A DNA stretch of 64,000 bases from Halobiforma lacisalsi AJ5. GTDB lineage: Archaea; Halobacteriota; Halobacteria; Halobacteriales; Natrialbaceae. The notes below the pieces were generated by a model. That model searched no databases. It saw only the letters and a program-made list of their open reading frames with translations, and was not told the DNA's origin. Below are positions 2,582 through 58,773 of this stretch, one piece after another (the first letter of the stretch is position 1; the number at the start of each line of letters is the position of its first letter). The stretch is taken from contig NZ_CP019285.1 of the NCBI RefSeq assembly GCF_000226975.2, forward strand, positions 3,596,001 through 3,660,000, in the 5' to 3' direction. The translations under genes were made by a program, and so were the position numbers.

Positions 2582-4672
2582 ATGAATCGGAACGCCCTGC
2601 CCCCATCCTCGCCCTCCACCCTCCCCGACGAGCGCGTGAGTCGTCGCTCCGTGCTCGCCGCCGCGGCCGTCGCTGCAGTGCCGACGAGCGGCTGTGCCAC
2701 CCGCGTCCGCAGCGTCGTCGACGACGGCGGCCCGCAACTCTCGGTGACGCTCGGTACCGTCCCCACCGACGACGACCGCGGCGCGATCCGGATCGCCCGC
2801 CATCTCGAGTCGACCCTCGAGGCCGTCGGCATCGACGTGGCGCTGGACGTCCGACAGTCCTCGGAATTTCTCGAGGCAGTGTTGCTGGATCACGAGTTCG
2901 ACCTCTTCGTCGGTCGGTACCCCGTCGACGGTGGTCCCGATCTCGACCCCGACTTCCTCTACGGAGCGTTGCACTCGCAGTTCGCGACCGAGGCCGGTCG
3001 ACAGAACCCCTTCGGGGTCACTGACATGGCCCTCGACGAAGCCCTCGAGACCCAGCGTCGCGCCGACGGTCGGGAACGGCGGGCGGCCGTCGAGTCGGTA
3101 CTCGCCTACGTCGCCGAACGGAAGCCGTTCGAGCCGATCTGCCGGCCGATCGAGCACCGCCTCGTCCGACCCGAGTCGATCGACGGCTGGTCGGACGGCT
3201 GGCTCGGCACCGAACTCGACTATCTCGGTCTCGACTCCGCCAGTACCACGGGCGACGGCTCGACGGATCGCCTCCACGCGCTCCTCCTCGATTCTCGGCC
3301 GTCCCGGAACTGCAACCCCCTCTCGGTGACGATGCGAGACCGCGACGTAATCGTCGACCTCCTGTACGACTCGCTTGGCACGATCGATCGCGAAACCGGA
3401 ACGATCCGGCCGTGGCTCGCCGATCGGTGGGAGTGGGAATCCAAACCGGAACCGAACCGCGACGGAACCGACTCTCCTCGGCGGACGACCGCGAGGATCA
3501 CGCTCCGGGAGGATGCATACTTTCACGACGGCGAACCGATCACCGCCGCGGACGTCGCCTTCACGTACCGGTTTCTCGCCGACACCGCCCTCGGTAACGC
3601 CCCCGTCCCTTCCCCTGCACCGCGGTACCGGGGACGCGTCGCCGCGGTCGACGACGTCGAGGTTCGCAGCGAAACCGAACTGTCGATCACGGTCGATGCC
3701 GGTCCCGAGGTCGCAAACCGGATCGCGACGGTTCCGATCCTCCCGGAACACGTCTGGATCGAGCGGCTCGCCGAATACGGCGTCGATCCGGACCGCGGCC
3801 GCGAGGACGAGGCGGACACTACCCTCGACACCGATCCCGGGCTCGACCCGGGGTACGAATCAGAACCGGACGACGAGGAAGCTGCCGTCTCGGCCCCGCA
3901 GGGGCGCTGGGGCCCCGTCGCCGGCGACGTCGAACCGATCGGGAGCGGCCCGTACCGGCTCGCCGACCGGGCGGAGCGTGATTCCATCACGCTCGAGCGA
4001 TACGAGGGACACTTCGCGGTACCCTCGTTCCCGGACGAGAGCGCGGACCGCGACGGGAACACGACCGCGACTATAGACGAAGATGGGGCGAACGACGAAC
4101 CCCACGGACGGACGGAGAGCGACGGGAACGACGGGAACGACGGGAGCGACGAGGACGCGGCGCACTCTCGCACTCCCACAGCCTCGATCGACGAGTTGTA
4201 CTTCGACATCGACCCGAGCAGCGCGTCCGCGATCCAGCGAACCGTCGCCGGGGACGCCGATCTGACGGCGTCGATGCTCGAGGCCGACGCGCTCGATCGG
4301 ATTCCGGCGGTGGCCGACGCCGACGGCTCGGTGCGCCGCCTCGAGGCCCGCTCGCCGACGTTCTACTACCTCGGGTTCAACACGCGCCGGGGGCCGGTCG
4401 GCAACGTTCATTTCCGTCGTGCGGTCGCCCACCTGATAGACAAGGCCTGGATCGTCGACGACGTCTTCCACGGTGAGGCCGACCCGATCGTAACGCCCGT
4501 CGGAGAGGAGTGGCTCCCCGACTCGGAGCCCGATCTGACGTGGGATGGTACGGACCCGGTCGCCCCGTTCCCCGGCGAAGGGGGCGAACTCGACGTCGAG
4601 GCCGCTCGAGCGCTGTTCGAAGACCGCGGGTTCCAGTACGACGAAGACGGCCGCCTGCTGCGGCGGTACTGA
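2582..4672 (+). CDS. Family-5 extracellular solute-binding lipoprotein, circularly permuted
   Basis: Predicted peptide/nickel-type (SBP_bac_5) solute-binding protein of 696 residues, exported by Tat and lipid-anchored: RR at 21-22 and a lipobox ending TSGC with Cys38. Domain order is unusual. Residues ~52-215 look like the C-terminal part of a normal SBP (helix with EAVGIDV, FDLFVGRYP, LDEALETQRR, FEPIC). Residues ~228-690 look like the normal N-terminal and central part (RPWLADRWEW, then PITAADVAFTYRF near 318-330, PILPEHVW, IGSGPYRL, FYYLGFNTRRGP), ending at AARALFEDRGF, where an ordinary SBP would continue into the piece now at the N-terminus. An acidic low-complexity insert occupies about 495-530. 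No permease or ATPase genes are adjacent; a PAP2 gene follows 17 nt after the stop. The ligand is unknown. A close paralogue lies at 5613-7634. Confidence 0.85.
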   Translation: MNRNALPPSSPSTLPDERVSRRSVLAAAAVAAVPTSGCATRVRSVVDDGGPQLSVTLGTVPTDDDRGAIRIARHLESTLEAVGIDVALDVRQSSEFLEAVLLDHEFDLFVGRYPVDGGPDLDPDFLYGALHSQFATEAGRQNPFGVTDMALDEALETQRRADGRERRAAVESVLAYVAERKPFEPICRPIEHRLVRPESIDGWSDGWLGTELDYLGLDSASTTGDGSTDRLHALLLDSRPSRNCNPLSVTMRDRDVIVDLLYDSLGTIDRETGTIRPWLADRWEWESKPEPNRDGTDSPRRTTARITLREDAYFHDGEPITAADVAFTYRFLADTALGNAPVPSPAPRYRGRVAAVDDVEVRSETELSITVDAGPEVANRIATVPILPEHVWIERLAEYGVDPDRGREDEADTTLDTDPGLDPGYESEPDDEEAAVSAPQGRWGPVAGDVEPIGSGPYRLADRAERDSITLERYEGHFAVPSFPDESADRDGNTTATIDEDGANDEPHGRTESDGNDGNDGSDEDAAHSRTPTASIDELYFDIDPSSASAIQRTVAGDADLTASMLEADALDRIPAVADADGSVRRLEARSPTFYYLGFNTRRGPVGNVHFRRAVAHLIDKAWIVDDVFHGEADPIVTPVGEEWLPDSEPDLTWDGTDPVAPFPGEGGELDVEAARALFEDRGFQYDEDGRLLRRY

Positions 4673-4673
4673 C

Positions 4674-4679
4674 GGAGGT
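4674..4679 (+). promoter_or_regulatory. Shine-Dalgarno GGAGGT for the first PAP2 gene
   Basis: A consensus GGAGGT ends 10 nt before the ATG at 4690, overlapping the end of the binding-protein gene. It supports an internal operon gene start at 4690 over more upstream in-frame starts. Confidence 0.75.
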
Positions 4680-4689
4680 ACGTACGGAT

Positions 4690-5517
4690 ATGTTCACCGA
4701 GATGTTGCTCCGCGTCGTCGTCGCAGTGGGCTGTCTCCTGCCGCTCGCGCTGGTCGCGTTCGTCGGGCGGGAGCGTCTCGCCTCCTTCCGGCGGGAGTGG
4801 CGCCAACGGCTCCGGGAGAGCGCACCAGTCGTTGCGGTACTCGCCGTCGTTCTCGTCGTGAACCGGCTATTGCGATCCTCGGCCCCGCGTCTCTCCGACG
4901 AGGTTGGCGTCCACATGACCTCGACGCTCTACGACCTCGAGGGCGAGTTCGTCTTCGTCTTCCAGTCGATCGAGACGCCGGCACTGACGGCGTACTTCTC
5001 GGTCGTGTACGTCTACGGCTACACGTTCCTGCTCGTCTTCCCGATTCTCGCGTACGTCGCGCTGTCCGACACGGTCCGGTTACGGCGGCTCCTGGCGGCG
5101 TACGCGCTGAACTACGCGATCGGGCTGGCCTGTTACCTGGTCGTGATCGCGCTCGGCCCGCGCAACGTGATGCCCGAGGCGTTCGCCGAGACGATGCTGT
5201 ACAATTCTAACCCGGAGTATCAGCATCTCACGCGACAGGTCAACCGCTACACCAACGTCTTCCCCTCGCTGCATACCTCGCTTTCGGCGACGGTAGCGAT
5301 CTTCGCCTACCGGACGCGGTCGACGTACTCAGCGTGGTTTCCGGTCGCCGGCGTCCTCGCGGTCTCGGTCGCCATCTCGACGATGTACCTGGGAATGCAC
5401 TGGGCGACCGACGTCGTCGCCGGAATCGTCCTGGCGGCCGTCTCGGTCGTGCTCTCGGTGTCCCTCGTGGGTCGAGGGTGGGCGTCGACGCTTCGCGAGC
5501 GGGTCGGACTCGAGTGA
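4690..5517 (+). CDS. PAP2-family membrane phosphatase, copy 1
   Basis: Polytopic membrane protein of 275 residues related to type 2 phosphatidic acid phosphatases. About six hydrophobic segments are seen. PAP2 motif 2 appears as PSLHTS (about 196-201), and motif 3 as the MHWATDVVAG stretch near 236-245, with catalytic-type His and Asp. The first PAP2 motif (KX6RP) is weak; PRNVMPE may occupy its place, as in the inositol-phosphorylceramide-synthase-like subgroup. It likely acts on a phospholipid or isoprenoid phosphate at the outer membrane face. The gene is coupled to the upstream binding protein, and the same pairing recurs in copy 2, suggesting a joint role that is not known. Confidence 0.85.
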   Translation: MFTEMLLRVVVAVGCLLPLALVAFVGRERLASFRREWRQRLRESAPVVAVLAVVLVVNRLLRSSAPRLSDEVGVHMTSTLYDLEGEFVFVFQSIETPALTAYFSVVYVYGYTFLLVFPILAYVALSDTVRLRRLLAAYALNYAIGLACYLVVIALGPRNVMPEAFAETMLYNSNPEYQHLTRQVNRYTNVFPSLHTSLSATVAIFAYRTRSTYSAWFPVAGVLAVSVAISTMYLGMHWATDVVAGIVLAAVSVVLSVSLVGRGWASTLRERVGLE

Positions 5518-5560
5518 CGGCCGCGTTGCGTTCGAAAGCCAAAGACCGGCCGTTCCAGCG

Positions 5561-5574
5561 CAATACTGTTATAT
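5561..5574 (+). promoter_or_regulatory. Promoter-like element CAATACTGTTATAT, copy 2
   Basis: Identical 14-mer to the one upstream of the first binding-protein gene, here 52 nt before the ATG at 5613. Conservation of the element while the surrounding bases differ points to shared control of both modules. Confidence 0.6.
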
Positions 5575-5612
5575 CACCCCTGGCGAACAGAGACAAACGA
5601 ACGAGAGACGAG

Positions 5613-7634
5613 ATGCCAGAGCCCGCTCCCCCCTCCGCCGAGACGCCGCGTCGCGATGCCGAGAGCGACCGCCACGGCCGAGGTCCGACGACGAGCCGCC
5701 GCGCGATGCTCGCCGCGACCGGGCTGACGGCGGCGACGGCCGGCTGCGTTCGGGAAGTTCGCAACGCGGTCAACCGCGACGGAATCGACCACCTGTCGCT
5801 GACGATCACCACGCTGCCCGCCGACGGCGACCGCGAAAGCATCCAGCTCTCCCGAGCGATCCGGAACGCGCTCGAGGCGGTCGGCGTCGACGTCTCGATC
5901 GCGATGCGCTCCCACGAGGAGTTCCTGCGGGAGACGCTGATCAACCACGAGTTCGACGTGTACGTCGGCCGCTACCCGACCGGGACCGAGCCGTCCTACC
6001 TCTACGAGGCACTCCACTCGCGGTACGCCGACGAGGCGGGCTGGCAGAACCCGTTCGGGTTCACGAACCTCACGTTCGACGAGCGCCTCGAGCGCCAGCG
6101 CGACGCCGGCGACCGCGAGCGACGCGACGCCATCGCGGAGACGCTGTCGGCGTTCGCCGCCGAGCAGCCGTTCGTCCCGATCTGTGCGCCCCGGGAGTAC
6201 CGACTGGCGCGGACCGACCGCTTCGACGGCTGGGAGGATCGACACCCGGCGACTCCGCCGGGATATCTCGGACTCGAGGTTCTCGACCGGGAGAACGAGA
6301 GTGGAAACGACGACAGCCGACTCCGGGCCGTCCACACGGACGCCCGCCCCTCGCAGAACCTCAATCCGCTGTCGGCCGAATACCGAAACCGGGGGCTGTT
6401 CACCGGATTGCTATACGATACGCTCGCGGTCGATGCAGACCTGCTCGAGGATTCGGGACTCGAGTCAGACGGTGAGGACGGTGAGGATGGGGAGGACGGA
6501 GAGGACGGCGAGAACGCGGATGAGGAGGACGAGGGAGACGGGGGAACGACAGGAGACGAAAACCCGGACAGGGAGACCGATGCGGACGACGCCGATGCCA
6601 CGGGACCCGACCTCCGCCCCTGGCTCGCCGACTCCTGGACCCTCGAGGACGACGTACTGACGGTACGGCTCCGCGAGGACTGTCCGTTCCACGATGGACG
6701 ACAGGTAACCGCCGACGACGTCGCCTTCACCTACCGGTTCCTCTCGGATACGACCCTCGGCGACGACCGGGTTCCGACCCCGTCGCCGCGCCATCGCGGC
6801 CAGGTCGCCCCCGTCGAAGCGGTCGACGCGGCCGGCAACGACCACGAGGTCGAGTTCCGGTTCCGACGCTCGCTCGAGGACGCGAGCCCAGCGGTCGCCG
6901 CCGCGCTGACGGTCCCGATCCTGCCGGAACACGTCTGGCGAGAGCGGTCGGCGGCCGCCGACGTCACCGGCGTCCGCATCGCCGAAGGGGTCACCGAGGC
7001 GCTCGTCGTGGACAACGTCCCGCCGATCGGGAGCGGCCCCTTCGCGTTCGCCGACCGAACGGACCGGGAACACGTCACCCTCGAGCGCAACGACGACCAC
7101 TTCACGCTACGCGAGGGCGTCGATCTCCCCGCGCCGACCGCGTCCGAGATGCGGGTCGCCATCGACCCCCGGAGCACGTCGGCCGTCGAACTCGTTTCCG
7201 ACGACGACGCCGACGTCACCACGTCGACGCTCGAGAGCTACGTGCTCGACGACGTGATCGAGGCCGCCGCCGAGGCCGACGACCTCGAGGTGCTCGAGTC
7301 GCCGCCGCGATCGTTCTACCATCTGGGTTTCAACGCGCGTAAAGCGCCGTTCAGCAATCCCCGATTCCGGCGAACGGTGGCACGACTGATCGACAAGGCG
7401 TGGGTCGTCGACGAGGTGTTCGACGGCTACGCCCGGCCGATCACGGCGCCGCTCGTGGATCAGGAGTGGGTCCCGGACGACCTCGCCAGGGGCGCCGACG
7501 GGAACGGCGACCCCGCGACACCCTTCCTCGGACAGGACGGCGAAGTCGACGTCGAGGCTGCGCGGGCGGCGTTCGAGGCGGCAGGGTTCAGGTACGACGC
7601 GAACGGCCGACTCCGTACACGGGTGAGTCGGTAA
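5613..7634 (+). CDS. Family-5 extracellular solute-binding lipoprotein, circularly permuted (paralogue)
   Basis: 673-residue paralogue of the 2582-4672 protein. The Tat motif SRR lies at 28-30 and the lipobox ATAGC has Cys45, so it should be a lipid-anchored extracellular protein. The same permuted order is seen: an SBP C-terminal-like part (LEAVGVDV, FDVYVGRYP, ALHSRYADEAG, ERLERQRDAGDRERR, PFVPIC) sits at the N-terminus, then the SBP N-terminal part (NLNPLSAEYRNRGL, RPWLADSWTL, FHDGRQVTADDVAFTYRF), PILPEHVW, IGSGPFAF, FYHLGFNARKAPF, ending AARAAFEAAGF. A Glu-Asp-Gly repeat insert lies near residues 287-330. The ATG at 5613 is preferred over far upstream in-frame starts because the signal peptide begins shortly after. 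Its stop overlaps the next start by 1 nt. Confidence 0.85.
   Translation: MPEPAPPSAETPRRDAESDRHGRGPTTSRRAMLAATGLTAATAGCVREVRNAVNRDGIDHLSLTITTLPADGDRESIQLSRAIRNALEAVGVDVSIAMRSHEEFLRETLINHEFDVYVGRYPTGTEPSYLYEALHSRYADEAGWQNPFGFTNLTFDERLERQRDAGDRERRDAIAETLSAFAAEQPFVPICAPREYRLARTDRFDGWEDRHPATPPGYLGLEVLDRENESGNDDSRLRAVHTDARPSQNLNPLSAEYRNRGLFTGLLYDTLAVDADLLEDSGLESDGEDGEDGEDGEDGENADEEDEGDGGTTGDENPDRETDADDADATGPDLRPWLADSWTLEDDVLTVRLREDCPFHDGRQVTADDVAFTYRFLSDTTLGDDRVPTPSPRHRGQVAPVEAVDAAGNDHEVEFRFRRSLEDASPAVAAALTVPILPEHVWRERSAAADVTGVRIAEGVTEALVVDNVPPIGSGPFAFADRTDREHVTLERNDDHFTLREGVDLPAPTASEMRVAIDPRSTSAVELVSDDDADVTTSTLESYVLDDVIEAAAEADDLEVLESPPRSFYHLGFNARKAPFSNPRFRRTVARLIDKAWVVDEVFDGYARPITAPLVDQEWVPDDLARGADGNGDPATPFLGQDGEVDVEAARAAFEAAGFRYDANGRLRTRVSR
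6468..6520 (+). repeat. GACGG(T/A)GAGGA acidic coding repeat
   Basis: Imperfect 9-bp repeats encoding Glu-Asp-Gly units inside the second solute-binding protein. They lie in the linker after the LEDSGLESDG segment, where copy 1 has no such insert, so it is a recent lineage-specific expansion. Confidence 0.65.
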
Positions 7635-8560
7635 TGCTTCTCGAGGTCCTGCTTCGGCTCGTCGTCGTCGTCACCGTCATGCTGATCGCCGCGACGGCCG
7701 CCTTCGTCGGCCGCTACCGGCTCCGGGACACGCGCCTCGAGTGGCGCGAGCGCGTACAGGAGGCCGCACCGATCACGGTCGTTCTCGTAGCCGTATTGCT
7801 CGGGAACGGTGTTGCCAGACAGACGGTTCCGGACCTCTCGTGGATGATCGGCTGGGAACGGACGGGACAGATCGAGGCCCTCGAGGGGTCGTTCATCGTC
7901 TGGCTGCAGTCCCAGGCGACGCCGGAGTTAACGGCGTACTTTTCGTTCGTCTACATCTACGCCTACGTCTTCCTGCTCGTCTTCCCGATCGTTGCCTACT
8001 TCGCGCTCTCGAACACGCGCCCGCTCCGGGAGTTGCTGGCGGCCTACACGTTGAACTACACGCTCGGGCTGGTCTGTTACGTCTTCGTGATCGCCTACGG
8101 GCCGCGAAACATGATGCCGGAACTGGTCGATGCCCTCCTGTACGACACGTACCCGCGATACCAGCACCTCACGCGGCAGGTCAACCGCAACACGAACGTC
8201 TTCCCTTCGTTGCACACATCGCTGGCGACGACCGTCGCCTTCCTGGCGTACCGAACACGGGAGATCTATCCGAAGTGGGCCCTCGTCGCCCTCTGGGTCG
8301 CGCTCTCGGTCGCCGTGTCGACGATGTACCTGGGGATCCACTGGGCGATCGACGTCCTCGCGGGCGTCGCACTCGCCTACGTGAGCGTCACCCTCTCCGG
8401 GTTGCTGGTCGGGCAGTGGTCGGTCCGAAACTGGCTCGAGAGCCGGGTTCCGCCCCAGTCCGAACCGAGCGGACACTCGGGAAAGAGGCCACGAGAGACG
8501 CGGGACCCCGAGCGCGACCGCGCCGTCGAACCGACCGACTCGAGCGGCGAGGAAGGGTAA
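7634..8560 (+). CDS. PAP2-family membrane phosphatase, copy 2
   Basis: 308-residue paralogue of the 4690-5517 protein, with the same topology. Motif 2 is PSLHTS and motif 3 is the IHWAIDVLAG stretch; RQVNRNTNVF before motif 2 matches RQVNRYTNVF of copy 1. The C-terminus carries a longer hydrophilic tail (about 275-308), rich in Pro, Arg and Glu. Its ATG overlaps the TAA of the binding-protein gene by one base, so translation is probably coupled. The repeated pairing of a permuted binding protein and a PAP2 phosphatase suggests the two act on the same envelope substrate; this is inference. Confidence 0.85.
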   Translation: MLLEVLLRLVVVVTVMLIAATAAFVGRYRLRDTRLEWRERVQEAAPITVVLVAVLLGNGVARQTVPDLSWMIGWERTGQIEALEGSFIVWLQSQATPELTAYFSFVYIYAYVFLLVFPIVAYFALSNTRPLRELLAAYTLNYTLGLVCYVFVIAYGPRNMMPELVDALLYDTYPRYQHLTRQVNRNTNVFPSLHTSLATTVAFLAYRTREIYPKWALVALWVALSVAVSTMYLGIHWAIDVLAGVALAYVSVTLSGLLVGQWSVRNWLESRVPPQSEPSGHSGKRPRETRDPERDRAVEPTDSSGEEG

Positions 8561-28390: not shown

Positions 28391-30034
28391 TCATCGGCGT
28401 TCGAACCTGTCGCGCAGTACGATCGCCGCGGCGTTCATCCCGAGTAACACGACGAGCAGTGTCACGACACCGGCTGCGACGACCCCGTATCTGAACTCCG
28501 GCTGGACGCTCCCTCGCCACGCGTAGATCTGCAACGGCATCGCGGTGACAGTCGAGAACAGCGATTCGGGTGGACTCGAGACGGATGTCGCCGCACCGAT
28601 CATGATCAGCGGTGCGGTTTCGCCGATCGCTCGGCCGAGCGCGAGGATCGTCCCTGTGAGAATGCCGGGGAACGCTTCAGGGAGGACGACGTTGCGAGTC
28701 GTTTGCCAGCGGCTCGCTCCCATTCCGTAGGAGGCACGTCGTACCGACTTCGGAACCGATCTGATCGCTTCCTGAGCAGAGATGATGACGATCGGCAGGA
28801 CCAGCAATCCGACGGTCAGACCGGCCGTTAAGACCGTTCCGAGTCCGAGACCCAGATCGATGGAAACCGACCCAGCCTCGAGGGTAACTCCTCGGGCGAA
28901 AACTGCCAGTCCGAGCAACCCGTAAACGACCGATGGAACGCCAGCAAGGTTCGAGAGATTGACCTGAATCAGTTGTGTGAGGCGATTGTCGCCCGCGTAC
29001 TCCTCGAGGTAGATCGCTGCGCCGACGCCGAGCGGGAAGACTGCAACGATCATCACGCCAAGCATGAAGACCGAACCGATGATCGGCGGATACAGTCCGG
29101 ATCGCTCGGGGAGACGGGACGGTCCTTGCTGGAAGAATGCCGAGCGGACCCAGGGATCCGGCGAACTGCTACCCAGAAGGTCGGGCAGGAACACAGCAAG
29201 GAGAACGCTGCCTGCGATGACGACCGGTGCGCCGAGTCCAAGCCGGGCCGTCGACGATTCGGCTATCGTTTCCCGCTGGCCGGTCAGTACGATCACGGCA
29301 GGAATCGACAGCCCACCGAGGAAGACGATCGCCAGGTCACCAGCAACGAGTACCCCGATTTCGACGAGACCCCCGACGAGAAGACTACCGCCGACGACAC
29401 CAGCGGCGGCTAGTTCTCCGATTCGACTTCGGCCCTCGCGGGAGACTGACCACTGCCGTAACGCGAGCGCGGTCGGACCTGCGAACGTCAAGAAGTACAA
29501 CAGCCAGGGTTTGATGAGCGCGAGGACCCCGGTCAGCGGAGCACGGGCGACCGAGGCGACGAGGGCCCCGACGACGGCGACGCCGAGCGCCCATCTGTGT
29601 GCGTCGGATACCTGCTCGATTCGGTCACCGTAGACGAGGAGGGCACCTGCAGGGAAGATCGCCAGCAGGAAGTATGCCGCCCATATCTGGGGTGAAACGA
29701 TGATGGACACGACGACGAGGAAGAGCCCGAATCCGACGCTCAGCAACAGTCCTCCCGTCGTCGTCTTCGCGACGTCGATCGCAGGCGTTCCGCGAATTCG
29801 CCACCAGTACGCTGTGATCGGAGCCCCGATCGAGAGTACGAACACCGCGTACCATTCCGTGCTCGCCTCGGCTAGCTGGAAGGCGTCGATCGTGACGTAC
29901 GTGAGTAACACGAGGAGAGTCACGATACCGAAAAGCGCTGCGGAGAGGCAGGCGTACTTGAACGCGCTTCCCTTGATGCGAGCGGCGACGTTCGACGCAC
30001 CGGCCCAGTCGTGGCGCTCGGTTTCAGTACTCAT
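28391..30034 (-). CDS. pstA: Phosphate ABC transporter permease PstA
   Basis: 547-residue inner-membrane permease of the Pst phosphate importer. The haloarchaeal form has an N-terminal extension of several hydrophobic segments (about 1-270) before the conserved permease domain. Typical motifs are GLYPPIIGSVFMLGVMI, FPLGVGAAIYLEEYA, NLAGVPSVVYGLLGL, and EAIRSVPKSVRRASYGMGAS with the ATPase-contact loop, then GRAIGETAPLIMIG. The ATG at 30034 is preferred to a GTG at 30043. The operon is pstS-pstC-pstA, but the expected pstB after it is destroyed, so transport by this copy alone is not expected. Confidence 0.93.
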   Translation of the reverse strand: MSTETERHDWAGASNVAARIKGSAFKYACLSAALFGIVTLLVLLTYVTIDAFQLAEASTEWYAVFVLSIGAPITAYWWRIRGTPAIDVAKTTTGGLLLSVGFGLFLVVVSIIVSPQIWAAYFLLAIFPAGALLVYGDRIEQVSDAHRWALGVAVVGALVASVARAPLTGVLALIKPWLLYFLTFAGPTALALRQWSVSREGRSRIGELAAAGVVGGSLLVGGLVEIGVLVAGDLAIVFLGGLSIPAVIVLTGQRETIAESSTARLGLGAPVVIAGSVLLAVFLPDLLGSSSPDPWVRSAFFQQGPSRLPERSGLYPPIIGSVFMLGVMIVAVFPLGVGAAIYLEEYAGDNRLTQLIQVNLSNLAGVPSVVYGLLGLAVFARGVTLEAGSVSIDLGLGLGTVLTAGLTVGLLVLPIVIISAQEAIRSVPKSVRRASYGMGASRWQTTRNVVLPEAFPGILTGTILALGRAIGETAPLIMIGAATSVSSPPESLFSTVTAMPLQIYAWRGSVQPEFRYGVVAAGVVTLLVVLLGMNAAAIVLRDRFERR

Positions 30035-30082
30035 CAAACTCACCTCGACGGTCGTCGGATAGTTGGTCTGGTCGTCGTTGCA

Positions 30083-31051
30083 TCAGTACACCTCCCTGTA
30101 CCGTCGTTTGACGTACTCTGCCACCAGATTCATCGTGAACGTGAACGCAAACAGCGCCAGACCGAGGGCAAACATCGACCAGTAGACCGGCGTGCCACCG
30201 ACGACGTCGGAGCCAGCGGCCTGGACCATCGCTGCCGTGATCGTCTGAATCGAGTCGTAGAGGTTCTCGTGGATACTCGTCGGCTCGAGGATCAACATCT
30301 GCGGGTTCTGTCCGGCCGCCATCGTCACGATCATCGTCTCGCCGATCGCTCGCGAAATCGCGAGGATGAACGACGAGAAGATCCCCGACAGCGCCGCCGG
30401 AACCACGACCCGCGTGGAGACGTCGAACTTCGTCGCGCCCAGCCCGTATCCGGCCTGTCTGAGTTCGTCCGGGACGGAACTCAGGGCGTCCTCGCTGATC
30501 GAGGAGACCATCGGAATGATCATGATTCCGACCATGATCGACGCCGACATCGCGTTGAACGTGCTCAGCGGCAAGATCTTCTGGAGCCACGGCGTGATGT
30601 ACACCAGCGCGAAGTAGCCGTAGACGACCGTCGGAACGCCCGCGAGAATCTCGAGGGCGGGTTTGAGGTACGCTCGCGTTCGTTCGGTCGCATACTCGCT
30701 GATATAGATCGCGGCCCCCAGCCCGCAGGGAAGCGCGACTGCAGCGGAGGCGACGGTGACGACGATCGTTCCGCTCAACAGCGGCAACAGACCGTACCGG
30801 TACGGCTGAATCGTCGGCCGCCAGTTCGTCCCGAACAGGAAGTCACGAATCGCGTTCGTCCAGGACGTCTCGAGCACGCCCGCGTACTGGTCAACGAAGT
30901 AGATGGCGTCCGAGAAGAGGCTGTAGATGATACCGACGGTGATCAACACCGTCAGCGTCATACAGCCGAACAGGACGTACTCGTAGAGCCGTTCACGTCT
31001 CACCGTCTCGGCCGGGCGTTGCCACTCCGACTCGATAGTATCGCTACTCAC
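30083..31051 (-). CDS. pstC: Phosphate ABC transporter permease PstC
   Basis: 322-residue membrane permease partner of PstA, starting at GTG. Six hydrophobic segments are visible; conserved features include LLPLLSGTIVVTVAS, LPCGLGAAIYISEYA, LAGVPTVVYGYFALVYITP, and the ATPase-contact region EDALSSVPDELRQAGYGLGATKFD, followed by RAIGETMIVTMAAGQNP. It sits 49 nt upstream of pstA and 64 nt downstream of pstS in the same direction. Intact, unlike its ATPase. Confidence 0.94.
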   Translation of the reverse strand: MSSDTIESEWQRPAETVRRERLYEYVLFGCMTLTVLITVGIIYSLFSDAIYFVDQYAGVLETSWTNAIRDFLFGTNWRPTIQPYRYGLLPLLSGTIVVTVASAAVALPCGLGAAIYISEYATERTRAYLKPALEILAGVPTVVYGYFALVYITPWLQKILPLSTFNAMSASIMVGIMIIPMVSSISEDALSSVPDELRQAGYGLGATKFDVSTRVVVPAALSGIFSSFILAISRAIGETMIVTMAAGQNPQMLILEPTSIHENLYDSIQTITAAMVQAAGSDVVGGTPVYWSMFALGLALFAFTFTMNLVAEYVKRRYREVY

Positions 31052-31115
31052 AATAACTCACCACCATCTGCGTTTGCGGTTCGATCATTGGTAGAAGACG
31101 GATCGGCAGTTTAGT

Positions 31116-32162
31116 TCAGTTCATCGAGGGGATCGCCTCGTCTTCACTGAGATCCCCGTCGATGGCAGCCTCGAGTCGATCGAGGTTCTCTTGAACCTCC
31201 TGATCGTTCATCGCAACGTAGCCGATGTCCTCCGAGACGATACTCCGGTCGCCGCTCAGTTCGATCGCGAACCGCATGAACTCCTGGAGCGCCTCGTTCT
31301 CCTGTAGTTTCTGCTGGTTGACATACCAGAAGATCGGACGTGCGAGCGGATACGATCCCTCGGAGGCCGCCTCGAGGCTCGGCGCGGTACAGCCGTCGCC
31401 GGCGTCGATCTCGAGGGCTTTGACGCTGTCGGGGTTGTTGTCGTAGTACGCGTACGGAAGGTAGCCGTGGGCGTACTCGTTCCCGGCGACACCCTGGGCG
31501 ATCTCATCGTCTTCCTCGGTGCCGTCGAAGTCCTCGCGGATGACCCGGAGCTCGCCGACGACCTCTTCGGTCCAGTAGTCGAAGGTTCCTGACGTCGTTG
31601 CCGCACCGAACAGTTCGATCTCCTCGTCGGGCCAGTCGGAGTTGATGTCGGCCCACGTCTCGGGAGCGCTGTCGGGATGCCAGATCTCGCTGAGCTGGTC
31701 CAGATCCGCACAGTCGAGCCAGTCGTTGTCGTTGTTGACGACGGCCGTCAGCGCGTCACCAGCACACTGGAACTCGACCGGCTGGAAACCGGTATCGCTC
31801 GCTTCCTGGATTTCTTCTTCCATAATCGGGCGGCTCGCACCGTTGATGTCGCTGTCTCCGGGCAAGAAGAAGTTCTCGAACCCGCCCGTACTCCCATCGC
31901 TGGACAGTTCGTAATCGAACCCGTCCTGTTCACGGGCGAACTCTTCGCCGGCCGCTTCGGACACCGGATAAACGGTACTGCTACCCGAAATTCGGATAGT
32001 TCCGGAAACGCTGTTACCGCTGCCACTGTCACTACCGGTTTCCCCGCTCGTTCCCTCCTCCTCGGTACACCCTGCAAGTGCGACGGCCCCCGCGCCACCG
32101 GCCACCGAAATGAATCGTCGTCGCGATACACCGATACCGGACTGGGACGTGTCGTCCGTCAT
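31116..32162 (-). CDS. pstS: Phosphate-binding lipoprotein PstS
   Basis: 348-residue phosphate-binding protein. The Tat/lipobox signal SRRRFISVAGGAGAVALAGC places the lipid-anchored Cys near residue 32, followed by a Ser/Gly/Asp linker. Binding-site motifs seen are ISGSSTVYPVSEAAG, SSDGSTGGF and FGAATTSGTFDYW. It captures phosphate outside the cell and delivers it to PstCA. The ATG at 32162 is favoured over the GTG at 32165. A TATA-like CTTTATA (minus strand, 32186-32192) is about 24-30 nt before it, as expected for a leaderless transcript. Confidence 0.94.
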   Translation of the reverse strand: MTDDTSQSGIGVSRRRFISVAGGAGAVALAGCTEEEGTSGETGSDSGSGNSVSGTIRISGSSTVYPVSEAAGEEFAREQDGFDYELSSDGSTGGFENFFLPGDSDINGASRPIMEEEIQEASDTGFQPVEFQCAGDALTAVVNNDNDWLDCADLDQLSEIWHPDSAPETWADINSDWPDEEIELFGAATTSGTFDYWTEEVVGELRVIREDFDGTEEDDEIAQGVAGNEYAHGYLPYAYYDNNPDSVKALEIDAGDGCTAPSLEAASEGSYPLARPIFWYVNQQKLQENEALQEFMRFAIELSGDRSIVSEDIGYVAMNDQEVQENLDRLEAAIDGDLSEDEAIPSMN

Positions 32163-32545
32163 CACCTGAGAGCAATCAGGACACGTATAAAGAGGATTCT
32201 AATATCTATATACTCAACCAGATACGCCAATAGAGTACTATTTTCGGCAACGTAGATATCGGTATTACGACCGATCGATCGGCCTCCACTGCTGACCCGT
32301 CGTTCGAAGGGAGACGACTGATTTGAGGGGTCTTTCACCCATCGATATTCCGGGTCTGCGTAACGCGGTCAGCAATTGACGTCTCGTATAGGGCAATACC
32401 TTCACCGATATATTAATATATAGTACTATATATTGGTATGATTCGCACGTTCGAAAACGGACAACGCTCGGGATAAATACGGGGTAAATGGATTTACTCA
32501 ATAGATTCGAAGGGATTTATATCCCCCCTGACGAAACGTTCCGCT
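32163..32545. promoter_or_regulatory. Divergent pstS/phoU intergenic region
   Basis: 383 nt without a gene. On the minus strand it has the pstS TATA-like CTTTATA (32186-32192) and AT-rich bases; on the plus strand several AT-rich stretches precede the third phoU. A 20-bp palindrome sits at 32415-32434. The remainder is AT-rich compared with the genome, as expected for a regulatory region. Confidence 0.6.
32415..32434. promoter_or_regulatory. Perfect 20-bp palindrome AATATATAGTACTATATATT
   Basis: All 20 bases are self-complementary. It lies 112 nt upstream of the plus-strand phoU and 253 nt upstream of pstS. It overlaps the TATATATT expected of a TATA box, so binding would block the promoter. 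It is a candidate operator for a phosphate-responsive regulator such as the PhoU/AbrB proteins encoded next door. Confidence 0.5.
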
Positions 32546-38607: not shown

Positions 38608-38627
38608 CCCACGGCTAAAGCCGTGGG
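38608..38627. repeat. Right-end hairpin CCCACGGCTAAAGCCGTGGG
   Basis: Perfect 8-bp stem with a 4-nt loop. The tnpB stop codon (minus-strand TAG at 38615-38617) falls inside this hairpin, so the coding end and the structural end overlap. It is the expected recognition hairpin of TnpA and the 3' scaffold of the guide RNA. Confidence 0.75.
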
Positions 38628-38760
38628 GTTCCCCCACTGGGGGTTGAACCCACGGATACGGAGAGGTTCGCAGGTTCGTCGTCACGTTGGACGATGACCT
38701 GCGTTTCGGACTGTGCCAGTACAGCCCCCGCCTCGGACAGCGGTTTCGAGAACTTGCCCA
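38608..38760 (-). ncRNA. Candidate omega/reRNA scaffold at the 3' end of tnpB
   Basis: In IS200/IS605 elements the guide RNA (omegaRNA, reRNA) derives from the 3' end of the tnpB transcript and runs through the right end. Here the region ends in the hairpin at 38608-38627. Boundaries are inferred from the family, not seen. Confidence 0.3.
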
Positions 38761-39769
38761 AGGCTCGTTTGCCGATATTCAGCGCACCGTTTTTGTCCGC
38801 GTTGTCGTCCAGTCCACACGCAGGACACTTGAACCGCCCCTGCGTCTCGCGGTCGCCTTCGCAGGTACAACGGTTGCACGTCTTCGACGTGTCGTATTCT
38901 TTGACCAACTGTACGTCGATACCCGCGTCGTGGGCCTTGTACTCGATGTAGTTCAAGAGGCGGGCGAACGGCATCTTGTGGGTCTTGTCGTTGACGTACC
39001 GTCCCTTGTCGTTGTCCTTACGAATCCCACCAAGGTCGCCCACGACGATAACTGCGTTCCGCTCCTCGGCGTCCTCCACAATCTGTCGAGCAATCTTGTG
39101 GAGGCGGTCGTCCACCTTCCGCGCTTCCGCGTCACCGATTTGCTCAACCACCTGTTGCCCCTGTCGAGGTTTCGCCTTCCCGATGGACTTTCGGAGTTGC
39201 TTGTAGTGTTCGCGGATACGGCGAACTTCCTCGCCGTAGAACGTGGTTTTGCGGTCAGAGAGGAACGCGCAGGTGGCGACCCACCGTGCGCCCATGTCGA
39301 TAGCCAGTACGTCGTCATACTCGTCTCGAACAGTCACAGACCGCTTGACGACGAGATGAACGTACCAGTCACCGTCACGGCGCACCAACTCACTGTCCCG
39401 AATATCGCCCTCACGGATGAGTTGTTCGTCCTTATGCGGGAGGTAGGCGGGACACCAGATGGAGTTGCCCCGTCCACGCTCGGGGTCGAAGACAGGGACT
39501 TTGACCCACCACGACGAGAGAACGGTGTTCTCGTCGTGGGCTACGTCGAACACGTCGTTGCGGAGAACAACGGGTTGTTCGGTGTCGTGGTTCGGGTCTT
39601 TCTGTCGCTGGACTTTCGACGCCTGCTGTTTGGTCGCAGAGTAGAGGTCGGCGTCTCCACCGTGAACCTCGCGTTGGAACGCCTCGTACTCACGGGCGAG
39701 TAGGTCAGCCTTCCTGTTGGTCAGCGAGTGGAGTTTGACCCGCACCGTGGTCGAGACGTTTCGTTGCAT
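38615..39769 (-). CDS. tnpB: TnpB, RNA-guided endonuclease-like protein of IS605
   Basis: 384-residue TnpB, ancestor-type of Cas12. An N-terminal OB/helical region is followed by RuvC-I (LAIDMGARWVA, about 155-165), RuvC-II region VIVVGDLGGIRKDN (about 252-262), zinc ribbon CNRC...CPAC (about 318-339), and RuvC-III DDNADKNGALNIG. At RuvC-II the usual Glu (VVxEDL) is Gly, followed by Asp, as in many haloarchaeal TnpB; activity is uncertain. It follows tnpA after 2 nt. The stop lies in the right-end hairpin. Confidence 0.9.
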   Translation of the reverse strand: MQRNVSTTVRVKLHSLTNRKADLLAREYEAFQREVHGGDADLYSATKQQASKVQRQKDPNHDTEQPVVLRNDVFDVAHDENTVLSSWWVKVPVFDPERGRGNSIWCPAYLPHKDEQLIREGDIRDSELVRRDGDWYVHLVVKRSVTVRDEYDDVLAIDMGARWVATCAFLSDRKTTFYGEEVRRIREHYKQLRKSIGKAKPRQGQQVVEQIGDAEARKVDDRLHKIARQIVEDAEERNAVIVVGDLGGIRKDNDKGRYVNDKTHKMPFARLLNYIEYKAHDAGIDVQLVKEYDTSKTCNRCTCEGDRETQGRFKCPACGLDDNADKNGALNIGKRALGKFSKPLSEAGAVLAQSETQVIVQRDDEPANLSVSVGSTPSGGTPRL

Positions 39770-55810: not shown

Positions 55811-56290
55811 TTAGCGAACCAACCTGATCAGTGACCCGAATACCGGGAGCCCGAGCGCCGCCCCGACCGCAACGTAGACGATCGGCGTCGTCTCCGCCGC
55901 GACGACCGCCGAGTCGCCGAGGGTCGCCGCGAAGACGGCGAGGACGAGGACGCCGAAGCCGAGTCCCCCCAGCACGGCCCGCTTGGGCGTCGCCGAGACG
56001 AGTCCCACGAGCGCGCCCCCGACGATCAACCCGAGCCAGTGGAGCCACGACAGCGCGAGGCCAACGGCGACCGCGACGAAGAGCGCGACGGCGTGGACCG
56101 TCGAGTCCGTCCGAACCCGCTCGAGGCCGTCCTGGTGTTGCCGATCCGAGGTTCGAGTCCCGACGTTTGCCTCGCCGGTGCGCTCGTCGGTTGCGGGTTC
56201 GACGTTCCCGTTCTCGTTCCCGTTCCCGTCGGTCCCGCGTTCGCTCTCGTCGGTCGGCTCGTCCGCGGCCGGCGAGTCGCTCGCGGTCAT
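55811..56290 (-). CDS. Conserved membrane protein of unknown function
   Basis: 159-residue protein. The first ~60 residues are disordered and acidic. Hydrophobic segments then follow (VHAVALFVAVAVGLALSWLHWLGL, IVGGALVGLVSA, AVLGGLGFGVLVLAVFAATLG, TTPIVYVAVGAALGLPVFGSLI), suggesting four membrane helices. It overlaps the upstream penicillin-acylase gene stop by 4 nt and is probably cotranscribed. No function can be assigned. Confidence 0.72.
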   Translation of the reverse strand: MTASDSPAADEPTDESERGTDGNGNENGNVEPATDERTGEANVGTRTSDRQHQDGLERVRTDSTVHAVALFVAVAVGLALSWLHWLGLIVGGALVGLVSATPKRAVLGGLGFGVLVLAVFAATLGDSAVVAAETTPIVYVAVGAALGLPVFGSLIRLVR

Positions 56291-58773
56291 TGTGATCCCT
56301 CCGTCTCTGCCGCCTCGAAGACGACGTCCGGATCCCCATCATCGACCGAGCGATCCATCGGTTTCTGCTCGCCGTCGAGCCACGCCTCGAACTGGTCGTC
56401 GTAGTGTTCGGAGAAGTAATCGCCCGAGTTGCCGCCGGGGAGGATCGCCGTCGCGTCGCCGCCCGGTTCGACGACCATGCGCCAGCTCGAGCCCACGGCG
56501 TCGTCGACGCGGTAGTTCTTGACCGTCGCCGCCGAGCCGTCGGCCGGCCGATCGTCGTAGTCCAGAAACGGTGCCTCGACGCCGAACGGATGCTCGATCG
56601 GACCGGTCGTGTTCCGATCGCCGTAGGTCTCCCATCCTTCCTCGTCGATCTCCGCGAGCGCGGCCTCGAGCGCGTCGACCATGCGTTCGGGCCGCGATCC
56701 GTCGAACCAGTCGCTGTCGGCAGGCAACGTTGCGAGCACCCAGTCGTTAGGGTAGTACGACTCATCGAGATCGGCGTCCTCGAACGCGGGTTCGAAGACC
56801 TCCCGCCGGAAGCCCTCGAGCCAGCGGTCGAAGACCAGCGCCGAAGATGAGTCCCGTTCCATGCGGTAGTCCCAGTCGGCGAGCTCGTCGGCGGCGTCCT
56901 CGAGGCCGTCCGAGGCCCCGTCGTGGCTCGCGACGGCGTCGACGAGGTCCGGGACCAACTGCGCGGCACGGCCGTCGTAGGTGTCGTCCTGCAACTCACG
57001 GTGGAAGTCGTGGTCGGCAGGCTCGCCGGACTCGAGGCGCTCGTCGAGCCGTTCGTAGATCCGGCCGCCGCGGTACGGCGTGGCGTATGCGACCCCCACG
57101 TAGTGGTTGGGGTCGTCCACGACGCGCTGGTTCGCCGTCGCGAGGACGTCTGGATCGATCGCGTGGGGTTTCTCCTCGAAGGGGACGAACCCGTCCCACG
57201 AGGACTCGCCGAACGGGGTGAACCCGGACCACTCGCCCTCGCCGGCGGAGCCGTCGAAGAGCCGGTTGCCCGAGACGGGATCGCCGTCGATCCGTCTGAT
57301 CGGAAGTTTCCCAGTCACGTAGTACATCGTTCGCCCATCCGCGTCGGCGTAGACGAGGTTCTGTGTCGGCAGGTCGAACTTGCGGGTCGACTCGAGGAGA
57401 TCCTCGAGGCCGTCGCTGCGCTCGAACTCGTAGATGGCTTCGGTCGTCCGTGTCGCGGTGTGGCCCGTCCAGGCGACGCCGACCGTCTGTCCCTCGCGCT
57501 CGAGGACGGGGCCGTGAACGGTCTTCTTGATCGTGAACGTCCGGTCCTCGCCGTCGGCGACCGGGATCGCCCGCTCCTCGGTCTCGAACGCGCGCCACTC
57601 GTCGCCGTAGCGGTACTCGTCGGCGTCGGTGCTCGAGAGGCGCCGGTGGCCCGCACTCGAGCCGTCGTCGCCCCGCATCTCGTACTCGTAGCAGTCTAGC
57701 ACGTCCGCGCCGACGTTCGTGAACGACCACGTCCCCGTTTCGTTCGCGCCCGTGATGACGAACGGGACCCCCGGGAACGTGGCACCGCGGACCGACGTCT
57801 CCGGCGTCTCGACGTGCTGTTCGTACCACAGCGGCGGCGTCATCAGCGTGAGGTGGGGGTCGTAGGCGACGAGCGGGCCGCCGCTGTCGGTGTGCTCGCC
57901 CGAGACGACCCAGCTGTTCGATCCGACCCCCGTAGGCGATTCGAACCGTGAGAGCCAGCTCGCCAGTTCCCGGTCGACGGCGTCGGTCTCGAGGGCGCCG
58001 GACCGTGAGTTCCTGGTCCCGTCGTTCCCGTCGTTCCCGTCGTCCTCATTGTCACCGTCGAGCCGCTCCCCATCGACCCTCTCCCGCAGGATCGGCACGT
58101 CGTGGTTCAGTCGCTCGGGATACAGTTCCTCGAGGGCGTCCGCGCCCAGCCGGTCGGCGATCACCGCCCGACGGAGTTCGCCGAAGTTGCCCGTCAGGTC
58201 CCACGAGATCTGTTTCTCCATCAGGATCGTGTCGACGGGCGTCCACTCGCGGGGCTCGTAGCCCAGCAGTTCGAACTCGAGGGGGAGTTGCTCGGTTTCC
58301 ATCGCGGCGGTGACCCCCTCGGCGTACGCCTCGACGAGCGGCCCCGCGGGGGTGTCCGCGACGCGCTCCCACGTCGCCTCGGCGGCCCCCGCGAAGTCCA
58401 TCGCCACGTGGAACGCGTCGTCCTCGAGGGTGGCCTCGCCGACGAGTTCGGACAATCGGCCGCGCATGACCCGCCGCTGTAGATCGAGCTGGAAGGCCCG
58501 GTCGAACGCCTGGACGTAGCCGACGGCGAAGTACGCGGCCGCCTCGTCGTCGGCCTCGATCGTCGGCACGCCGTACCCGTCGTACCGGACGGTAGCGTCG
58601 CCATACGGGTTCTCTACCGACTCCGACAGCTCCCTGTCCGCGGCGTCCCACGCCGACCCCGACAGCGGCGCGAACGACTCGAGGAGTTCGCTCGCGCCGC
58701 TGACGGTCAGCCCCCCGACGCCGGCGGCGAGCGCGCCGGCGAGTAGTCCTCGACGCGTGGTGTCATTGCTCAC
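56287..58773 (-). CDS. Penicillin-acylase-family Ntn hydrolase
   Basis: 828-residue N-terminal-nucleophile amidohydrolase, starting at GTG. Twin-Arg TRRGLLAGALAAGVGGL at 5-22 suggests Tat export. The precursor is self-cleaved; the catalytic Ser is the first residue after Gly in GVGSNSWVVSG (about 283-287). The downstream chain has FPGVPFVITGANETGTWSFTNVGADVLD and a C-terminal lobe ending with EPGGDATAILPGGNSGDYFSEHYDDQ. Family members cleave amides or acyl-homoserine lactones; here the substrate is unknown. A small membrane protein gene overlaps the end. Confidence 0.88.
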   Translation of the reverse strand: MSNDTTRRGLLAGALAAGVGGLTVSGASELLESFAPLSGSAWDAADRELSESVENPYGDATVRYDGYGVPTIEADDEAAAYFAVGYVQAFDRAFQLDLQRRVMRGRLSELVGEATLEDDAFHVAMDFAGAAEATWERVADTPAGPLVEAYAEGVTAAMETEQLPLEFELLGYEPREWTPVDTILMEKQISWDLTGNFGELRRAVIADRLGADALEELYPERLNHDVPILRERVDGERLDGDNEDDGNDGNDGTRNSRSGALETDAVDRELASWLSRFESPTGVGSNSWVVSGEHTDSGGPLVAYDPHLTLMTPPLWYEQHVETPETSVRGATFPGVPFVITGANETGTWSFTNVGADVLDCYEYEMRGDDGSSAGHRRLSSTDADEYRYGDEWRAFETEERAIPVADGEDRTFTIKKTVHGPVLEREGQTVGVAWTGHTATRTTEAIYEFERSDGLEDLLESTRKFDLPTQNLVYADADGRTMYYVTGKLPIRRIDGDPVSGNRLFDGSAGEGEWSGFTPFGESSWDGFVPFEEKPHAIDPDVLATANQRVVDDPNHYVGVAYATPYRGGRIYERLDERLESGEPADHDFHRELQDDTYDGRAAQLVPDLVDAVASHDGASDGLEDAADELADWDYRMERDSSSALVFDRWLEGFRREVFEPAFEDADLDESYYPNDWVLATLPADSDWFDGSRPERMVDALEAALAEIDEEGWETYGDRNTTGPIEHPFGVEAPFLDYDDRPADGSAATVKNYRVDDAVGSSWRMVVEPGGDATAILPGGNSGDYFSEHYDDQFEAWLDGEQKPMDRSVDDGDPDVVFEAAETEGSQ

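Follow-up and report, generated by a model that had tools for sequence, protein, structure and literature searches.

The window analysed here is a stretch of 64,000 nucleotides from the haloarchaeon Halobiforma lacisalsi AJ5 (contig NZ_CP019285.1, positions 3,596,001 to 3,660,000, forward strand). It contains two genes for family-5 solute-binding proteins (SBPs), referred to below as P0001 and P0002, each accompanied by a gene for a PAP2 family phosphatase. In the description that follows, piece A denotes the part of a family-5 SBP that is normally N-terminal together with the middle part, and piece B denotes the part that is normally C-terminal. Separate HMMs for A and B were trained on 80 proteins of normal order only (normal-order-only HMMs) and run on all 127 permuted proteins considered in this work. 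The features of the locus are as follows, with the basis of each assignment in brackets.

2538–2551, + strand: promoter-like element CAATACTGTTATAT ahead of the first SBP gene (exact copy at 5561–5574)
2582–4672, + strand: first circularly permuted family-5 SBP, P0001, 696 aa (ORF translation, Pfam, normal-order-only HMMs)
2582–2695, + strand: P0001 twin-arginine type signal and lipobox Cys, residue 38 (RR and GC motif in the translation)
2738–3190, + strand: P0001 piece B, residues 53–203 (normal-order-only HMM, domain E 2.5e-14)
3191–3313, + strand: P0001 joint where the original C- and N-termini meet, residues 204–244 (stretch separating the two HMM matches)
3314–4648, + strand: P0001 piece A, residues 245–689 (normal-order-only HMM, domain E 6.7e-44; Pfam profile 2–284)
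4690–5517, + strand: PAP2 family membrane phosphatase (Pfam PAP2_3, E 1.2e-17; start 18 bases past the P0001 stop codon)
5561–5574, + strand: second copy of the promoter-like element CAATACTGTTATAT, ahead of the second SBP gene
5613–7634, + strand: second circularly permuted family-5 SBP, P0002, 673 aa (translation, Pfam, AlphaFold, normal-order-only HMMs)
5613–5747, + strand: P0002 twin-arginine type signal and lipobox Cys, residue 45 (conservation of R29, R30, G44 and C45)
5799–6239, + strand: P0002 piece B, residues 63–209 (normal-order-only HMM, domain E 8.5e-17)
6321–7631, + strand: P0002 piece A, with an acidic (DGE)n insert near residues 281–330 (normal-order-only HMM)
7634–8560, + strand: second PAP2 family phosphatase (Pfam PAP2_3, E 2.6e-19; start codon overlaps the P0002 stop, TAATG)

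The promoter-like element, the SBP gene and the PAP2 gene form a unit that is duplicated in tandem (2582–8560 for the genes). The 14-mer CAATACTGTTATAT has two matches with at most 2 mismatches in the window, compared to 0.01 expected, and may act as a promoter. The coordinates given in the original prediction, 2582–7634, are correct, with the two genes at 2582–4672 and 5613–7634; the start of P0002 is most likely 5613, within a longer open frame that begins at 5334. Both proteins carry what appear to be the export signal and lipoprotein anchor expected of an SBP, namely an RR motif and a lipobox cysteine. The four signal residues listed for P0002 are at least 90% conserved among 61 homologues, and the P0001 signal matches the Pfam TAT_signal model weakly (E 0.29). 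Piece A ends just past the helix AARALFEDxGF in both proteins. It contains acidic inserts in P0001 as well; the low-complexity insert of P0002 (DGEDGEDGED..., window about 6450–6600) is predicted to be disordered, with pLDDT below 50 over most of its length in the AlphaFold model, and is absent or different in most relatives.

Both window proteins match the Pfam family SBP_bac_5 (PF00496), with E values of 1.3e-42 and 5.2e-45 and scores above the 32.4-bit cut-off, and in each of them the match consists of two stretches. The large stretch, residues 275–690 of P0001 and 334–665 of P0002, corresponds to positions 2–284 of the 368 profile positions, and the excised N-terminal pieces match positions 294–363 and 288–355, the latter scoring weakly when each is taken singly (E 0.0076 and 0.00055). 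This is the split into two pieces in reversed order that the original prediction, which claimed that family-5 binding proteins had been circularly permuted here, proposed to look for; a single collinear match over residues 50–690 is not seen. The normal-order-only HMMs agree in placing B ahead of A in both proteins, and they do so in all 127 of the 127 permuted proteins, the worst domain E being 2e-10, while a control with reversed sequences gave 0 matches. The same swapped order emerges from comparison of P0001 with PDB sequences, where residues 58–202 correspond to residues 365–504 of 5u4o, residues 54–190 to 374–504 of 6ofq, and residues 256–395 to 33–152 of 4pfu.

Membership of the SBP_bac_5 family rests on homology and not on order, and consequently the window proteins, as judged from their sequences, are permuted members of it in which B precedes A instead of following it. 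Profile alignment puts the permutation point at about position 285 of 368, and the C-terminal quarter of the normal chain now comes right after the signal peptide. The proteins have, at the sequence level, the properties of natural circular permutants: all segments are kept, the old termini are joined, and the new termini are located in a loop. The junctions were compared between permuted and normal orthologues in the family of P0003, a further permuted SBP of the same genome, and across all permuted lineages. By sequence comparison, the new chain ends are in one loop, after helix DPEKAKELLEEAGY and before the next strand; the helix ahead of this loop has the form KAKELLEEAGY.

The AlphaFold model of P0002, built with 61 homologues, consists of one compact fold with pLDDT of 84.8 and pTM of 0.82 (the latter being a measure of the model's internal confidence), and its low confidence is mainly confined to the signal and the acidic insert. 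Foldseek comparison of this model with the PDB found AppA, NikZ, AccA and DppA at probability 1.00, with TM-scores by target of only 0.25–0.55 against family-5 structures; the scores are low because Foldseek aligns in chain order. In contrast, a relative of normal order handled in the same way had TM-scores of 0.70–0.86 over about 600 columns, that is, over its whole length (for example, 0.81 versus 0.44 for P0002 against 1xoc, and 0.86 versus 0.30 against 5isu). This difference is what would be expected for a permuted but otherwise similar fold, although it amounts to prediction and not proof. The model, taken together with the normal-order control, supports the earlier suggestion that the binding fold is kept. 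Sequence searches of the PDB, each followed down to its 60 best matches, turned up no solved structure of a permuted member. The permuted chain most likely folds as the usual bilobed binding protein, in the order signal and lipobox, B, the joint between the two old termini, and A, and the membrane tether would be relocated to the loop between helix DPEKAKELLEEAGY and the next strand.

Proteins of this kind are common in haloarchaea. With a threshold of E 1e-60, a match to P0002 was obtained in 224 of the 391 haloarchaeal genomes, and all of the distinct window-family homologues that were examined (72/72) are permuted. Together with the permuted members of the wider clade described below, this bears out the claim that the break common to both paralogues predates their duplication. 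The source genome encodes seven SBP_bac_5 proteins, of which four are permuted. One of the four is P0003, whose gene stands at the head of a complete dppBCDF operon, and more permuted haloarchaeal lineages have full permease/ATPase operons. Outside the haloarchaea, a second archaeal family from the same phylum (code f15) has permuted members in which both pieces score strongly, and permuted members are also encoded on plasmids of Alphaproteobacteria (Nitratireductor, Ketogulonicigenium, Roseomonas, Maritalea and Microvirga); permuted members are found at the head of complete dppBCDF operons in both haloarchaea and Alphaproteobacteria. None of the permuted proteins tested reached an NCBIfam model, and the database records examined name them simply substrate-binding protein. 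Two individual proteins can be mentioned separately. A permuted SBP of another archaeal family (L183:5730-7472, genome G549) has a C-terminal PGF-CTERM-like membrane tail, so that the anchor of a permuted chain can also sit at the opposite end. A 553-aa permuted SBP with a permease gene downstream of it (L121:3816-5477, genome G091) branches outside the P0003 family and perhaps represents a further separate permutation.

The window family differs from these transporter-associated relatives in its gene neighbourhood. The gene directly downstream of the SBP gene encodes a PAP2 phosphatase, not a permease, in 67 of the 71 members of the window family where this could be tested, and the stop codon of the one often overlaps the start codon of the other (TGATG or TAATG). 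No permease was found beside the window SBPs or beside the inspected relatives. The permease and ATPase genes that accompany the SBP of a Dpp/Opp importer are present alongside the permuted relatives P0003, L165, L166 and L223–L226, whereas the window genes have PAP2 neighbours instead; the latter match the PAP2 superfamily phosphatases (PF14378, PF01569) above cut-off. The window SBP may capture its solute on the outer side of the membrane and cooperate with the PAP2 phosphatase. Gene order suggests, tentatively and with slightly less than even confidence on our part, that the ligand handled by the pair is phosphorylated or lipid-linked. It is nevertheless conceivable that the permuted window SBPs are ordinary feeders of a Dpp/Opp permease encoded elsewhere and that the PAP2 gene shares their operon without a functional link, given that permuted cousins head full permease/ATPase operons and that a Dpp permease is present elsewhere in the genome. 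We consider this somewhat unlikely, though far from negligible, since an arrangement maintained across many haloarchaeal genera in the proportion given above, often with overlapping codons, is unlikely to have been kept by chance. No described pairing of a PAP2 phosphatase with an SBP was found in the open-access literature. The SBP-PAP2 pair amounts to a widespread haloarchaeal surface system.

The most direct view of the change in order is offered by the P0003 family, in which, at an identity of at least 45%, 24 distinct members are permuted and 19 have the normal order. The normal form is arranged as signal-A-B and the permuted form as signal-B-joint-A, so that the same piece is N-terminal in some proteins and C-terminal in others among close relatives with 60–72% identity. 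Signal peptides and downstream dppB genes correspond between the permuted and the normal members. In the joint, the old C-terminus (...EQVxWLDRE) runs into what used to be the N-terminal linker (DLQEG-GTLR); both old termini are retained, which means that little or nothing has been lost from the mature chain. In the family tree, three normal proteins nest beside P0003, and normal L100 is sister to permuted L122 with support of 100/99 and matching signal peptides, a pairing that is recovered in the A-only and B-only trees. A single permuted clade inside the family is rejected by the AU test (dlnL 116, p 3.4e-11). The history of the family would require either one gain and two returns or three gains, each of which takes three changes if one weak fork is shifted. 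A possible reading, for which we see arguments almost as good as those against it, is that chain order at this loop can be switched both ways, and that the SBP of a haloarchaeal dppABCDF operon was permuted and then restored in place at least once while the transporter remained unchanged.

To place all permuted lineages relative to each other, trees were computed with A and B restored to the usual order and the joint left out. In two quick trees some permuted members of the wider clade were only weakly placed. The careful tree contains 57 proteins. The trees are deep, many of their rows have odd composition, and some of their forks are weak. The window family falls inside a permuted clade of 22 that includes bacterial members (support 97/83), and the f15 pair, L121 and the P0003 family are placed elsewhere, among normal proteins. 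Six changes of order are needed on this tree, at least five of them forced by well-supported branches. A clade of all permuted proteins is rejected by the AU test (dlnL 550, p 1.6e-8), as is a clade formed by the window clade and the f15 pair (p 3.3e-4). The exact cut also varies by lineage by up to some 20 residues within one loop, which further supports separate events. A careful reading would be that there were at least three origins (the window clade, f15 and the P0003 group), the number of separate outer lineages resting on moderately supported forks. It could be argued that there was one ancient permutation and that mixing of orders within groups reflects errors in the trees, considering that the break is in the same loop everywhere and that parts of the tree are weakly supported; this is very improbable in view of the AU tests for all rows and for the P0003 family, which reject a single origin, and also of the L100/L122 pair and the differing cut sites. 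We instead propose that the window pair inherited its permutation from a broad and old permuted clade that extends into Alphaproteobacteria, and that independent permutations occurred at the same loop in at least two further lineages. The likely route would be tandem duplication and fusion followed by loss of the outer parts, as in the established mechanism (PMC3320104). Duplicated intermediates, with two B pieces or with B but without A, were not found among the ORFs that were examined.

Considered as a whole, the window genes very probably encode lipid-anchored, truly permuted family-5 SBPs that have kept their fold, belong to a type of protein with recurrent origins, and are paired with PAP2 phosphatases. 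That the proteins are not permuted at all, an unrelated N-terminal domain or one from a different SBP having been fused to a truncated family-5 protein, might be suggested by the weak Pfam scores of the N-terminal piece alone and by a weak OpuAC match of piece B in P0002 that stays under the cut-off (E 0.097), but this has hardly any probability left, because HMMs that have seen only the normal order match the piece at 1e-14 to 1e-17, AlphaFold predicts one compact fold, and fusion with an unrelated domain is ruled out by the P0003 family with its orthologues differing in piece order.

Like DppA, OppA, NikA and AppA, which belong to SBP_bac_5 (PF00496), the window proteins have pieces A and B and the FHDG / TAxDV region, and the fold predicted for them is of this type as well; they differ in being permuted and in the part of the fold to which the lipobox is attached. 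A natural circular permutation is, as a rule, one ancient event that is seen across large distances. Here, both orders exist among proteins that are 60–72% identical and whose permeases are of the same kind, and this provides natural pairs for testing the constraints on chain order in folding, export and docking to the ABC permease. Computational tools and models based on order split or under-score the permuted SBPs.

Natural circular permutation in the SBP fold, with the ligand site kept, is known among glycine-betaine, molybdate and CysB-type binding proteins (OpuAC/ProX/MoBP), whose mutual identity is below 24% (PMC2395249). The present case differs from these in that it concerns the three-domain family 5, one recurrent loop, and both orders in orthologous operons. 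Permutation by duplication has been described for DNA methyltransferases and saposin/swaposin (reviewed in PMC3320104), and the same route is likely here, where the joint of the P0003 family keeps both old termini; the difference is that both orders coexist among close relatives and that the duplicated intermediate is missing from our data. Permuted SBPs are already known in other families (OpuAC/ProX), and the family-5 case is apparently undescribed in the open-access literature, which was the scope of our search.

Three other features of the window lie on the reverse strand. A PBP-like binding protein and two permease genes at 28391–32165 probably form a phosphate-type ABC importer. A TnpB/OrfB-like protein with a Cas12f1-like TNB domain is encoded at 38618–39769, and a penicillin-amidase family protein with a signal-like N-terminus is encoded at 56287–58773.
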